A stretch of DNA of 46,245 nucleotides from Eubacterium sp. (lineage in GTDB: Bacteria > Bacillota > Clostridia > Eubacteriales > Eubacteriaceae), in the NCBI GenBank assembly GCA_030524435.1, contig JAUNGS010000013.1:1-46245 (forward strand), written 5' to 3'. Positions within the stretch are counted from its first letter, which is position 1. Each line of letters starts with the position of its first letter. The translations under genes were made by a program, and so were the position numbers. Under the pieces are notes generated by a model. That model was given only the letters and a program-made list of their open reading frames with translations. It was not told where the DNA came from and did not search any database. This document shows positions 14,825-18,949 of this stretch, in pieces.

Positions 14825-15847
14825 GTGAACCAGTTTAAATTTGCAATCGACAACGACAATATGGCCATCACCCCCATCGAAAATATTTTTATCAACCACT
14901 ACATGCCCCAGGCCCACGGCGACTACGTTAAGGTCTACCTTTTTGGCCTGAAGCACTGCTTTAACCAAAGCCTGGATCCCATCGACAACCTCGAGCTGAG
15001 CCGTCTCTTCAACCTCACCGAGGGCGATGTCATCAAGGCCTGGGAATACTGGGAAAAAGAGGGCATCCTTTCCCTGGAGTACGTCGGCGCCAAGGACGTC
15101 GTCGTCACCTACTACAATATCTCCGCCAGGCTCATGAACAGCCAAAAATCCCAGGATGTCCAGGACGAGGCCCCTGAGATAGAGGCTTCCCCGGCAAACC
15201 AGATGGAAGCCCGGATCGCCGACATGTACGAGCGCGTCCAGCAGATGTACGGCAGCCGCACCATCACCCAGAAGGAGATCACCCTATTTCGGGACTGGAT
15301 CAGCGACTATCACTTCACGCCGGAGACCATCGTCCTTTTGGTGGAGTACTCCATGAATCTCATCGCCAAAAAAGAAAGGCCCTTCACCACCGCCCAGATC
15401 ATCAGCTATATCAGCCGGGTGGCCGAGGCCTGGCACAAGGCCGATATCAGGGATTACGCCCAGGCCGACGCCTACATCAAGGAGAGCCGGGATACCCAAA
15501 AGCTCTACTACGACGTCTTCCACTACCTGGGGCTTAAGCGCAACCCCATCGCCTGGGAAAAGGCCCTGATGTCCAAATGGCGGGATGAATACCACTACGA
15601 CATGGATATCATCACCTACGGCATGAGCCGTTCCAGCAAAACGGACCTCCGCTACATCGATGCCATCCTCAAGCGCTGGCACGACCAGGGGCTCACCACC
15701 CTGGAGGCCATTGAGAAAAACCCCGGCGCCCCCCAGCGCCCAGACAAAAATACCGCCGTCCAAAACGATCAGCGCGCCCAGGCCCACGAGGCCCTGGATC
15801 AGGCGGACGCCGAATGGTTAAGGAGTCTTTACAATGAATCAGAATAA
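14825..15847 (+). CDS. dnaD: DnaD domain replication initiation protein
   Basis: This 340-residue protein matches the DnaD/DnaB family that remodels the origin and helps load the replicative helicase in Firmicutes. An N-terminal winged-helix DnaD-like domain (about residues 1-115) is followed by a DnaD C-terminal domain (about 125-215, ending ISYISRVAEAWHKADI) and a second similar segment (about 220-300). The start is a GTG at 14825. An in-frame stop lies just upstream, so no earlier start is possible, and AAAGGA lies about ten bases away. It overlaps dnaC by 14 bases, so translation is coupled. The pair encodes the helicase-loading machinery, with the helicase DnaB itself encoded at 31926-33266. 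Confidence 0.87.
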   Translation: MNQFKFAIDNDNMAITPIENIFINHYMPQAHGDYVKVYLFGLKHCFNQSLDPIDNLELSRLFNLTEGDVIKAWEYWEKEGILSLEYVGAKDVVVTYYNISARLMNSQKSQDVQDEAPEIEASPANQMEARIADMYERVQQMYGSRTITQKEITLFRDWISDYHFTPETIVLLVEYSMNLIAKKERPFTTAQIISYISRVAEAWHKADIRDYAQADAYIKESRDTQKLYYDVFHYLGLKRNPIAWEKALMSKWRDEYHYDMDIITYGMSRSSKTDLRYIDAILKRWHDQGLTTLEAIEKNPGAPQRPDKNTAVQNDQRAQAHEALDQADAEWLRSLYNESE

Positions 15848-16814
15848 TCGTGCCAAAATCTTTGAAGCCTTCGAGGCAAAGCGGGCCCGCCATGAATACG
15901 AGCAGTCCCTCAGAAAAAAACAGATCTACACCCGCATCCCAGAGCTTGCGCACATCGACGCCGAAATCAACCGTCTGGGCATCGACCTCACCAAAAAAAG
16001 GCTTCGGGGCGAGGCCAATGCCCTGGAGGCCTTTAAGGAGGCCACCGCCGCCTTGGAAACACAGCGGGACGCCCTCCTGGCCGCCCAGGGCTTTTCCCGG
16101 GAGGATCTGGCCATCCGCCACGACTGCCCCCTGTGCCAGGATACAGGCTACGTCGAGGGCAAAATGTGCAGCTGTCTCAGCCAGGCCCTGACCGACAGCG
16201 CCTTCACCAGCTTTGATCTAAAGCCCCTGGCCAAATCGGAAAACTTCGGCAGCTTCAACCTCGATTTCTATTCTGAGATCCCCCTGGAGGGCAAGGGCGT
16301 CTCCCCCAGGAAAAACAGCCTCGCTTTAAAACAGCTTCTCATGGACTACTGCGACGCCTTCGACACCGTCCAGGAAAATTATCTGTTCTACGGCCCTCCG
16401 GGGGTGGGAAAAACCTTCATGTCCAATTGCGTGGCCAACGCCCTCATCGAAAAAAAATACAGCGTCGTCTACACCTCGGCGGCTCACCTCATCCGCCTGG
16501 TTCAAAGCAGCATGTTTGAGAGAGACGGCGATTTAGACCACATCCACCAGACCCTGACGGCCTGTGACCTTTTAATCATCGACGACCTCGGCGCCGAGTA
16601 CGTCACCGCCTTCAGCGGCAAGCAGCTTTTTGAAATCATCAACACCAGACTTCTGGGACAGAAAAAGATGATTATCTCCAGCAACCTCACGGCCACGCAG
16701 ATCATGGAGCAGTACGACGAGCGCCTTTCCTCGAGAATCCGCGGCAATTTCACCGCCCTGCCCTTTATCGGCCAGGACATCAGGCTTTTGAAAAAGGCGG
16801 CCCGCCGAAAATAA
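15834..16814 (+). CDS. dnaC: DnaC-type helicase loader ATPase
   Basis: This 326-residue AAA+ ATPase of the DnaC/DnaI family loads the hexameric DnaB helicase on DNA. A Cys cluster (C98, C101, C112, C114, in CPLCQDTGY and MCSC) probably binds zinc, as in Bacillus DnaI. The Walker A loop is YGPPGVGKT (about 187-194) and Walker B is LLIIDDLGAEY. The C-terminus has an arginine-finger region (SSRIRGNF). It overlaps the end of dnaD and ends 15 bases before a bidirectional terminator. The IstB transposition helpers are related, but the zinc motif and dnaD linkage point to DnaC/DnaI. Confidence 0.9.
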   Translation: MNQNNRAKIFEAFEAKRARHEYEQSLRKKQIYTRIPELAHIDAEINRLGIDLTKKRLRGEANALEAFKEATAALETQRDALLAAQGFSREDLAIRHDCPLCQDTGYVEGKMCSCLSQALTDSAFTSFDLKPLAKSENFGSFNLDFYSEIPLEGKGVSPRKNSLALKQLLMDYCDAFDTVQENYLFYGPPGVGKTFMSNCVANALIEKKYSVVYTSAAHLIRLVQSSMFERDGDLDHIHQTLTACDLLIIDDLGAEYVTAFSGKQLFEIINTRLLGQKKMIISSNLTATQIMEQYDERLSSRIRGNFTALPFIGQDIRLLKKAARRK

Positions 16815-16828
16815 ACCATCCACGCCAT

Positions 16829-16858
16829 AAAAAAAGAGACCCCATCGGTCTCTTTTTT
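16829..16858. terminator. Bidirectional terminator between dnaC and trmN6-like gene
   Basis: AAAGAGACC (16833-16841) and GGTCTCTTT (16847-16855), flanked by A and T runs, form a symmetrical terminator. It serves the convergent genes on both strands. Confidence 0.85.
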
Positions 16859-17649
16859 CAGCTTAAGCTGCTGACATCCCTGAGAACATGGCTGTCCCGG
16901 GGTCCCTCAGTGCCGTAGATGGCATTGATATCTGCAGTGTAGCTGCCGTCCTCATTGTAAACCACCAGGGGCTTTTCCGCCCTTAGCCCCGGCTGGCCTC
17001 GCTTCATGCCCTCCACCAGCACCAGATTGGCCGGCTTGCGGCTGTAGGGATGGACAAATTGTATCCGTTTGACCTCGACCCCCTCCTCCCGGAGGGCGCA
17101 GATGATGTCGGCAATTCGGTCTGCCCGGTGCACCAGGAAAATTTTCCCCCGATCCTTGAGGTGCCTCTTGGCAAAAAGCGCCACGTCGCCGATGCTGCAC
17201 AGAAGCTCATGGCGGGCGATGGCCTGGGTCTGGGCTGAATGTCTGAAGCCCTGGGCCGCCTTCATATAGGGCGGGTTGCTGGTGATGATGTCGTAGTTGG
17301 CGCCGATGACCGCCGGATCCGGCGACCTCAGATCCATCTCATAGATGCGGATTTTCTCCTCCAGGCCATTGATAGCCACACTTCTTCTGGCCATCTCCAC
17401 CATGTTGGGCTGAATCTCCAGGGCGTCGATGGCCTGAACCTCAGTTTTGGCCCAGAGCAGCAGGGGGATGATGCCCGTTCCCGTCCCCAAATCGATGACC
17501 TTTGAGCGCCGGCGCACCGCCTGGGAGGCAAACCAGGCCAAAAGCACCGCATCGATGCCAAAGCAAAAGTATTCGGGATTTTGGATGATCTTAAGTCCTC
17601 CTGCCCCCAGATCCTCCAGCCGTTCCCAGCTGTTTACAAGCTTATCCAC
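16858..17649 (-). CDS. trmN6: tRNA1(Val) A37 N6-methyltransferase-like protein
   Basis: This SAM-dependent methyltransferase (263 residues from the chosen GTG) matches the TrmN6/YabB family, which methylates adenine in tRNA. The SAM loop is VIDLGTGTGIIPLLL and the catalytic motif IV is SNPPYM, as in N6-adenine methyltransferases. I chose GTG at 17649, where AAGGAAGGTG lies just upstream. The open frame continues to 17796, but that extension is built of DnaA-box-like repeats and would make the protein longer than the family norm. An ATG at 17673 is a second choice. In Bacillus the homologue sits with yaaT, rsmI and metS, all of which also appear in this window. Confidence 0.82.
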   Translation of the reverse strand: MDKLVNSWERLEDLGAGGLKIIQNPEYFCFGIDAVLLAWFASQAVRRRSKVIDLGTGTGIIPLLLWAKTEVQAIDALEIQPNMVEMARRSVAINGLEEKIRIYEMDLRSPDPAVIGANYDIITSNPPYMKAAQGFRHSAQTQAIARHELLCSIGDVALFAKRHLKDRGKIFLVHRADRIADIICALREEGVEVKRIQFVHPYSRKPANLVLVEGMKRGQPGLRAEKPLVVYNEDGSYTADINAIYGTEGPRDSHVLRDVSSLS

Positions 17650-17811
17650 AAATTCACCTTCCTTTATCACCATTTTTACACGTTTTATCCACATTTTACC
17701 TGTTTTTACACACAGACTGTGGACAAATCTCCGGAATTCCCCTGATAACGGGGCTTTTATCCGCCGTTTTTTCGTCATCTTATGCACAGCCGTCACAATT
17801 TTTTGTCCACA
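17642..17811. promoter_or_regulatory. Cluster of DnaA-box-like 9-mers
   Basis: Within 170 bases there are three exact matches to TTATNCACA (17642-17650, 17685-17693, 17780-17788). Three more have one mismatch: 17704-17712, 17803-17811, and 17718-17726 on the opposite strand. An A/T-rich stretch (17820-17880) with a 20-base run that is nearly all A/T follows. The cluster sits beside dnaD-dnaC. It may be a DnaA-binding regulatory or titration site. Gene orientation on both sides argues against the main chromosomal origin. Confidence 0.6.
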
Positions 17812-17896
17812 GATCCACAGAATATTGTTGATTATACCATGAATTTCCCGTCCTGACCTCTAATTTTTAAATTTTCTTTATCCCCGTCGTCCTTTT

Positions 17897-17905
17897 TGAT
17901 ATAAT
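17897..17905 (+). promoter_or_regulatory. Extended -10 promoter of the unknown membrane protein gene
   Basis: TGATATAAT at 17897-17905, with no convincing -35 hexamer, 48 bases before the ATG at 17954. It lies about 85 bases downstream of the last DnaA-box-like site. Confidence 0.5.
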
Positions 17906-17953
17906 AGGTTTATTGAGTTAAAGGCGAAAATTTCAAGGAAGGCGGATATCACT

Positions 17954-18949
17954 ATGGTTCACTCCACCATTTCTCGGGAGACCGACAAGCTCCTGAATCG
18001 CAAAGACGGGCTGCTCTCATCCTTTTCGGATTCAGAAAGCCGCATCGATGATAAAATCTCAAAAATTTTTGACGCCCCTATAACCTCCCCCGAGGCAGAG
18101 GATCCCTTGGATCTGCTGTTTCAGCAGGCCGTGGAGAAGGCCTCTAAAAAGCGCCATGCCGAGGGAGAGATCATTGGCTACCACACCGAGGAGATCCTCG
18201 GCGTCGAGGAGGCCCTGGCCCAGATGAAGGCCCAGACCTCGGATACAGCGCCGGATCTCATGGCGGTGGAATCTCTGCTCAACCAGGCCGAGGACTTTGT
18301 CGGCACCCTGCCCAAGAAGCACTACATGGCCGCCAGGGCCGCCGTAGATAAGATGCTGCTGGACAACAATCCCCTGAGACCCAAAAAACGCCAGGAGACT
18401 CCCGACGATCACTTCTACGACGCCCTATTTTCCGACGATTCCCAAATCGACTGGGATTTTCTGCCCGAGGCCGAAACCGCCGTTGTCACCGACGAGGACG
18501 ACACCTTTTTTCAGGCGCACGAGCCGTCAAAGCCGGAGGCAGAGGGGAGCTTTTCGCCCCTTGGCGCCCTTACAAATTCCCGGGGCACCTTCCTGCTGTT
18601 TTTCCTCTCCCTCATCGGACTCAGCGTTTTTCTGGCGGTGCTGTCCCCGGTCATCGGACGCCTGGACTACCTGACCCTTCTGGTGCTGGCCATCTTTATG
18701 ATCCTGACCCTGGATATGCCCTTTAACGCCGTGCTCTTTGCCTCCGGCGCCATCTTAATCGCCTACCTGGCCGGCTATATCCGAGAGATTCTCACGGGCT
18801 TCGCCCAGGCAGATTTCTGGCACCTGGGATGGTTTGTCTTCATCCCCCTCTGCCTTATCAGCGCCTCGGCCTTTGTCCAGAGGATCTACCCCAGAAGCCG
18901 CAGCGCAGTGACATCCCCCGAGGCGGACCAAAATCCCCTCCAGGACTGA
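17954..18949 (+). CDS. Unknown protein with four C-terminal membrane helices
   Basis: I do not recognise this 331-residue protein. Residues 1-200 are hydrophilic, acidic and largely helical, with Glu/Ala/Lys-rich segments and stretches of Asp/Glu/Pro that look disordered. Residues 211-232, 239-253, 257-277 and 290-308 are hydrophobic and should span the membrane. The C-terminus is short and charged. There is no signal peptide, so the long N-terminal part should be cytoplasmic. AAGGAAGGCGG lies upstream of the start. It has its own promoter just beyond the DnaA-box cluster and is convergent with the ferredoxin gene. Codon use is like the neighbours, so it is probably a real gene. No function is proposed. 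Confidence 0.75.
   Translation: MVHSTISRETDKLLNRKDGLLSSFSDSESRIDDKISKIFDAPITSPEAEDPLDLLFQQAVEKASKKRHAEGEIIGYHTEEILGVEEALAQMKAQTSDTAPDLMAVESLLNQAEDFVGTLPKKHYMAARAAVDKMLLDNNPLRPKKRQETPDDHFYDALFSDDSQIDWDFLPEAETAVVTDEDDTFFQAHEPSKPEAEGSFSPLGALTNSRGTFLLFFLSLIGLSVFLAVLSPVIGRLDYLTLLVLAIFMILTLDMPFNAVLFASGAILIAYLAGYIREILTGFAQADFWHLGWFVFIPLCLISASAFVQRIYPRSRSAVTSPEADQNPLQD

Follow-up and report, generated by a model that had tools for sequence, protein, structure and literature searches.

The window analysed here, a stretch of 46,245 nucleotides from a contig of an Eubacterium species, contains an array of DnaA-box-like sites, candidate binding sites for DnaA, the protein that initiates chromosome replication. 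The array fills the gap between two diverging genes. On one side lies a gene for a trmN-like tRNA methyltransferase (16858..17649, minus strand, GTG start), which matches the TrmN model with an E-value of 1.3e-18, yet below the curated cut-off. On the other side lies a fast-evolving membrane-protein gene (17954..18949, plus strand), whose product matches no family. In most of the family its homologues (L045-L074) keep this position beside the array, and in one Acetobacterium-genus version the protein ends in a weak GGDEF-like domain. Beyond trmN two conserved neighbours are found, encoding a DnaD-domain protein (14825..15847, plus strand) and a DnaC/DnaI-like helicase-loader ATPase (15834..16814, plus strand). 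The sequence-only reading of this DNA had found the proximity of dnaD-dnaC suggestive. Control of these genes by the array was ruled out, since both are transcribed towards trmN, from which a terminator-like hairpin separates them. The whole of trmN stands between the array and these two genes, and the array is not their promoter; dnaC is thus outside its control, and the adjacency reflects conserved synteny rather than regulation of dnaD-dnaC.

Three exact and four one-mismatch matches to TTATNCACA, two of the latter overlapping, are located within 17642-17811. The exact sites start at 17642, 17685 and 17780 (all plus strand) and the one-mismatch sites at 17704 and 17706 (overlapping, plus strand), 17718 (minus strand) and 17803 (plus strand). 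The first exact box, TTATCCACA at 17642..17650, overlaps the start codon of the trmN-like gene (GTG GAT AAG), and a second copy of TTATCCACA (17685..17693) is the third box of a conserved core triad (p>, p+21>, p+33<). The overlapping boxes TTTTACACA and TTACACACA occupy 17704..17714 on the plus strand; the second of these, at 17706, is the forward box of an inverted pair, the reverse box of which is TTGTCCACA (17718..17726, minus strand). The members of the pair are 12 bp apart from start to start, leave a 3-bp gap and have their 3' ends facing. Further along, the exact box TTATGCACA (17780..17788, plus strand) is followed by a double element, TTGTCCACA-GATCCACA (17803..17819, plus strand), which aligns with the conserved TTATCCACA-TATnCACA of Acetobacterium, where the two boxes are 8 bp apart. 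A small G+C hairpin followed by CTTTT (17740..17753, plus strand) resembles a terminator and has similar counterparts at this place in several relatives, the signal being weak (one site found versus 0.7 expected in shuffled sequences). A structured RNA was considered as an explanation of the array and dropped, as a search of seven loci returned zero Rfam matches.

The density of the cluster, to which the sequence-only reading had drawn attention, is borne out by comparison with chance. Dinucleotide shuffles of 17640-17953 contained on average 0.02 exact and 0.51 one-mismatch sites, versus the three and four observed, and none of 2000 shuffles attained either the exact count or the total. Genome-wide only 66 exact TTATNCACA sites are present in 2.16 Mb. 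An excess over chance was also found in seven relatives.

Next to the boxes lies an A/T-rich stretch (17812..17953), which holds the likely promoter of the divergent membrane-protein gene (an extended -10 element, TGATATAAT, near 17896-17904). The A/T-richness pointed out earlier is real but mild (65.5% A+T, compared with 47.1% across the window); as an unwinding element the stretch finds no support, as it lacks the DnaA-trios that are present in oriC. Dense DnaA boxes beside A/T-rich DNA, close to dnaD-dnaC, might be taken to indicate a replication origin, whether secondary, cryptic or no longer in use. GC skew, read on the contigs of this genome and on stretches sampled from two complete related genomes (G013 and G024), shows no change of sign at the array in any of the three. 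It is negative across the whole window save for a single 2-kb step close to zero, at about 8 kb. In G013 it keeps its sign, with values of +0.139 (590 kb), +0.162 (the array itself), +0.012 (a dip, 617-632 kb) and +0.145 (660 kb). In G024 it flips between 670 and 700 kb, with dnaA at 690 kb, and has positive values in the surroundings of the array (862 kb). The genome has its own dnaA-dnaN-recF / rnpA-yidC locus, found on a separate contig and with boxes at both ends of dnaA. DnaA-trio-like runs (TAG/TAA repeats) occur in seven of the eight dnaA regions, that of this genome included, and in none of the seven arrays examined. The oriC of these genomes, at dnaA-dnaN, thus shares its 9-mer with the array, but it has DnaA-trios and a skew flip, and the array has neither. 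The trmN array is not an origin, in line with the earlier judgement that a bidirectional origin is unlikely here, and we give the origin reading practically no credence. On the draft genome's own contig C90 (78-91 kb) the skew changes about 10 kb from dnaA, not exactly there.

Conservation of the boxes in related acetogens had been set beforehand as a test, and it was found. The sampled Eubacteriaceae relatives take in Acetobacterium and Eubacterium barkeri, and at least three exact boxes are present upstream of trmN in 27 of the 30 Eubacteriaceae loci. Box order and spacing are fixed across genera, for example in steps of 13, 21 and 12 bp. In the genus Acetobacterium the boxes are located at -8>, 42> (in some), 55>, 76>, 88<, 195>, 203> and 302<, and in the genus of the window at -8>, 51>, 64>, 85>, 97<, 207> and 335>, so that both share one core spacing, 13-21-12 bp; the core in the window itself is 35>, 56>, 68<. 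The box at the trmN start (-8) recurs in 16 loci from the genus Acetobacterium and in every one of the five from the window's own genus. Across 18 Acetobacterium-genus genomes the box columns are on average 96% identical, versus 66% between the boxes (p = 2e-24), with a possible mild bias since the boxes were chosen in one reference genome. The inverted pair belongs to the most conserved parts of the array, and in several genera it is almost the only such pair in a genome. It forms a perfect TTATCCACAnnnTGTGGATAA in the relatives G027, G028 and G030; that of the window is weaker, with one mismatch per half. Three loci, from genera g4 and g7 (L020, L021 and L039), have lost the third core box. 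The whole array is missing from the sampled genomes of the Eubacteriaceae genera g3, g5, g8 and g9, which implies that it is dispensable. Among 73 trmN loci outside the family the boxes are not enriched (0.054 per kb upstream versus 0.053 elsewhere), and the notion of an ancient trmN feature was therefore rejected. A literature search of incomplete coverage found DnaA-box clusters described for neither Eubacterium nor Acetobacterium.

The genome contains further DnaA-box clusters, on contigs C45, C87 and C81. The array between pyrG and nadE (C45:25221-25607, equal to L003 9222-9608) comprises five exact and nine one-mismatch sites, mostly in tandem. It is conserved in genera g1, g2, g4 and g7 (relatives L165-L178) with recurring steps of 18, 22 and 9 bp, a spacing as fixed as that of the trmN array. 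The array after eno (C87:18251-18562, equal to L004 9252-9563; relatives L180-L183) is confined, among the genomes tested, to the genus of the window and holds in the relatives a face-to-face pair 12 bp apart. The cluster on C81 lies between phosphatase-like and microcompartment-like genes (L005 9906-10230). An array specific to Acetobacterium precedes a nucleotidase-like gene at a distance of about 205 kb from dnaA (L199 2037-2120, L200 2419-2459 and G018:205489-205529), and its triad (p>, p+21>, p+32<) is nearly identical to the trmN core.

The position of the trmN array between two flanking genes that are conserved with it, and the overlap of its boxes with the trmN start codon and upstream region, would also fit a role of DnaA as a transcription factor, the array being an operator for trmN and/or the membrane-protein gene that plays no part in initiation. 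Other arrays adjoin nadE, pyrG and the nucleotidase-like gene, and DnaA of E. coli is known to regulate nucleotide genes (PMC11317965). Nevertheless, six to eight boxes spread across some 200 bp are more than an operator would require, the genes beside the other arrays are unrelated (in one set the boxes follow eno), and trmN outside the family is without such boxes. We therefore regard purely transcriptional control as rather unlikely, though it is the strongest of the alternatives. The perfect palindrome TTATCCACAnnnTGTGGATAA of some relatives could, together with flanking half-sites, be the operator of another dimeric regulator, with only an incidental match to the DnaA box. This is very improbable, since single boxes in direct orientation are equally conserved at their fixed spacings, the same 9-mer flanks dnaA, and tandem copies of this motif make up the pyrG array.

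The clusters have a known counterpart in the Firmicutes. In Bacillus subtilis DnaA-box clusters (DBCs) outside oriC were described by Okumura et al. 2012, as cited in PMC5295017 and PMC13220808, and deletion of six such clusters leads to early initiation (PMC5295017, PMC13220808). Like these, the trmN array places several boxes in a short stretch that is denser than chance and lies outside oriC, which is on another contig; more than one cluster is present per genome and they are origin-proximal. The DBCs of B. subtilis are found at other loci, whereas in the trmN array box number, order and spacing have been kept across several genera. A further difference is that B. subtilis also uses YabA, of which no homolog scored above the cut-off in 40 Eubacteriaceae genomes, whereas the B. 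subtilis and L. lactis controls were detected. In B. subtilis yabA is located between yaaT (ricT) and yabB (trmN), a slot that is filled here by the array and the membrane-protein gene. A search of this ricT-trmN slot for YabA was negative, the membrane protein there matching no family. The absence of YabA may be common in the Clostridia in general.

Likenesses to E. coli loci were also observed. The datA locus is likewise a box-rich intergenic region near oriC on one arm, with a face-to-face box pair at 12 bp, but it depends on an IHF site between distant essential boxes and promotes ATP hydrolysis by DnaA. IHF is not expected in Firmicutes. The cores of DARS1 and DARS2 (L162/L163), the box sequences of which agree with PMC11317965, have box I> at 0, II< at +14 and III< at +26, whereas the array core, read on the trmN strand, has I> at 0, II< at +12 and III< at +33. 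The orientation is the same, with I and II face to face and III behind II, although in the window each box of the pair has one mismatch. The spacing differs (12 and 21 bp versus 14 and 12 bp), the array has many extra boxes, and E. coli belongs to another phylum. As one in four orientation classes would match by chance, the likeness is a lead rather than a sign of membership.

On a DARS-like reading, the face-to-face pair and the third box would gather ADP-DnaA, ADP would be released and ATP-DnaA would re-form. The core topology on the trmN strand (I> <II <III) is that of both E. coli elements, a head-to-head pair has been reported to be characteristic of and essential for DARS (PMC10380432), and in the array this pair is highly conserved and, in several genera, nearly unique per genome. 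Against this count the deviating spacing, the one-in-four chance of the orientation match, the 12-bp face-to-face pair of datA and the loss of the third box in the g4 and g7 loci. IHF and Fis, which are required at DARS2, are not expected in the host of the array either. Such recycling appears doubtful: reactivation of ADP-DnaA is possible at the array, but titration or transcriptional control would be at least as likely. It would be a bold and, in our estimate, improbable extension that this Firmicute family has its own DARS-like DnaA-recycling element with a new spacing, which together with the tandem pyrG-nadE array takes the role that YabA has in Bacillus.

The location of the arrays on the chromosome is in line with a role near the origin. 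In the seven complete genomes the trmN array lies 171 (G024), 206 (G025), 548 (G002), 666 (G010), 611 (G013), 884 (G018) and 207 kb (G034) from dnaA, that is 4-22% of the chromosome, and in all seven in the origin-proximal half of an arm. Close groups of TTATCCACA occur in complete genomes at oriC, the trmN array and pyrG-nadE, and in Acetobacterium also at the site at about 205 kb; in G018 and G034 groups less than 200 bp apart are found at oriC, trmN, pyrG and (in G018) the latter site only. When the pyrG, trmN and eno loci were compared in these same seven genomes, the relative distance from dnaA was near-constant for pyrG, which lay on one arm or the other at about 13-17% of the chromosome while genome size ranged from 2.0 to 4.4 Mb, and more variable for trmN and eno.

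On balance, therefore, the array is probably a conserved, origin-proximal DnaA-binding locus outside oriC that tunes the amount of free or active DnaA. As it has been kept at the same place and with the same spacing in most of the related acetogens, though it is not an origin, it probably helps to set how much DnaA is available for starting a new round of replication. We infer from these sequence patterns that DnaA binds at the array and is thereby limited or remodelled for the control of replication. The regulatory, titrating or DnaA-reactivating locus suggested by the sequence-only reading is plausible. DnaA would occupy the six to eight boxes of the array, probably cooperatively. Being origin-proximal, the array would be duplicated early in each round, which would change the amount of initiation-competent DnaA left for oriC. 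The trmN array would then be one of a small set, together with pyrG-nadE and the lineage-specific arrays after eno and before the nucleotidase-like gene, with an action comparable to that of the B. subtilis DBCs or of datA/DARS in E. coli.

How chromosomal binding sites control DnaA is understood in detail for E. coli and poorly for the Firmicutes; according to a 2026 review, whether ADP- and ATP-DnaA are kept in balance at all in B. subtilis is unknown (PMC13220808). The geometry shared across genera of acetogens, some of which are genetically tractable, provides a defined 200-bp target that bears on replication timing in a Gram-positive lineage apparently without YabA. If DARS-like recycling were true, chromosomal sites that govern the nucleotide state of DnaA would have evolved outside the Proteobacteria.

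Finally, the single TTATCCACA sites in G018 and G010 are strongly strand-biased by replication arm, being mostly on the plus strand on one side of dnaA and on the minus strand on the other, perhaps as a result of GC skew and of the coding of Val-Asp-Lys.
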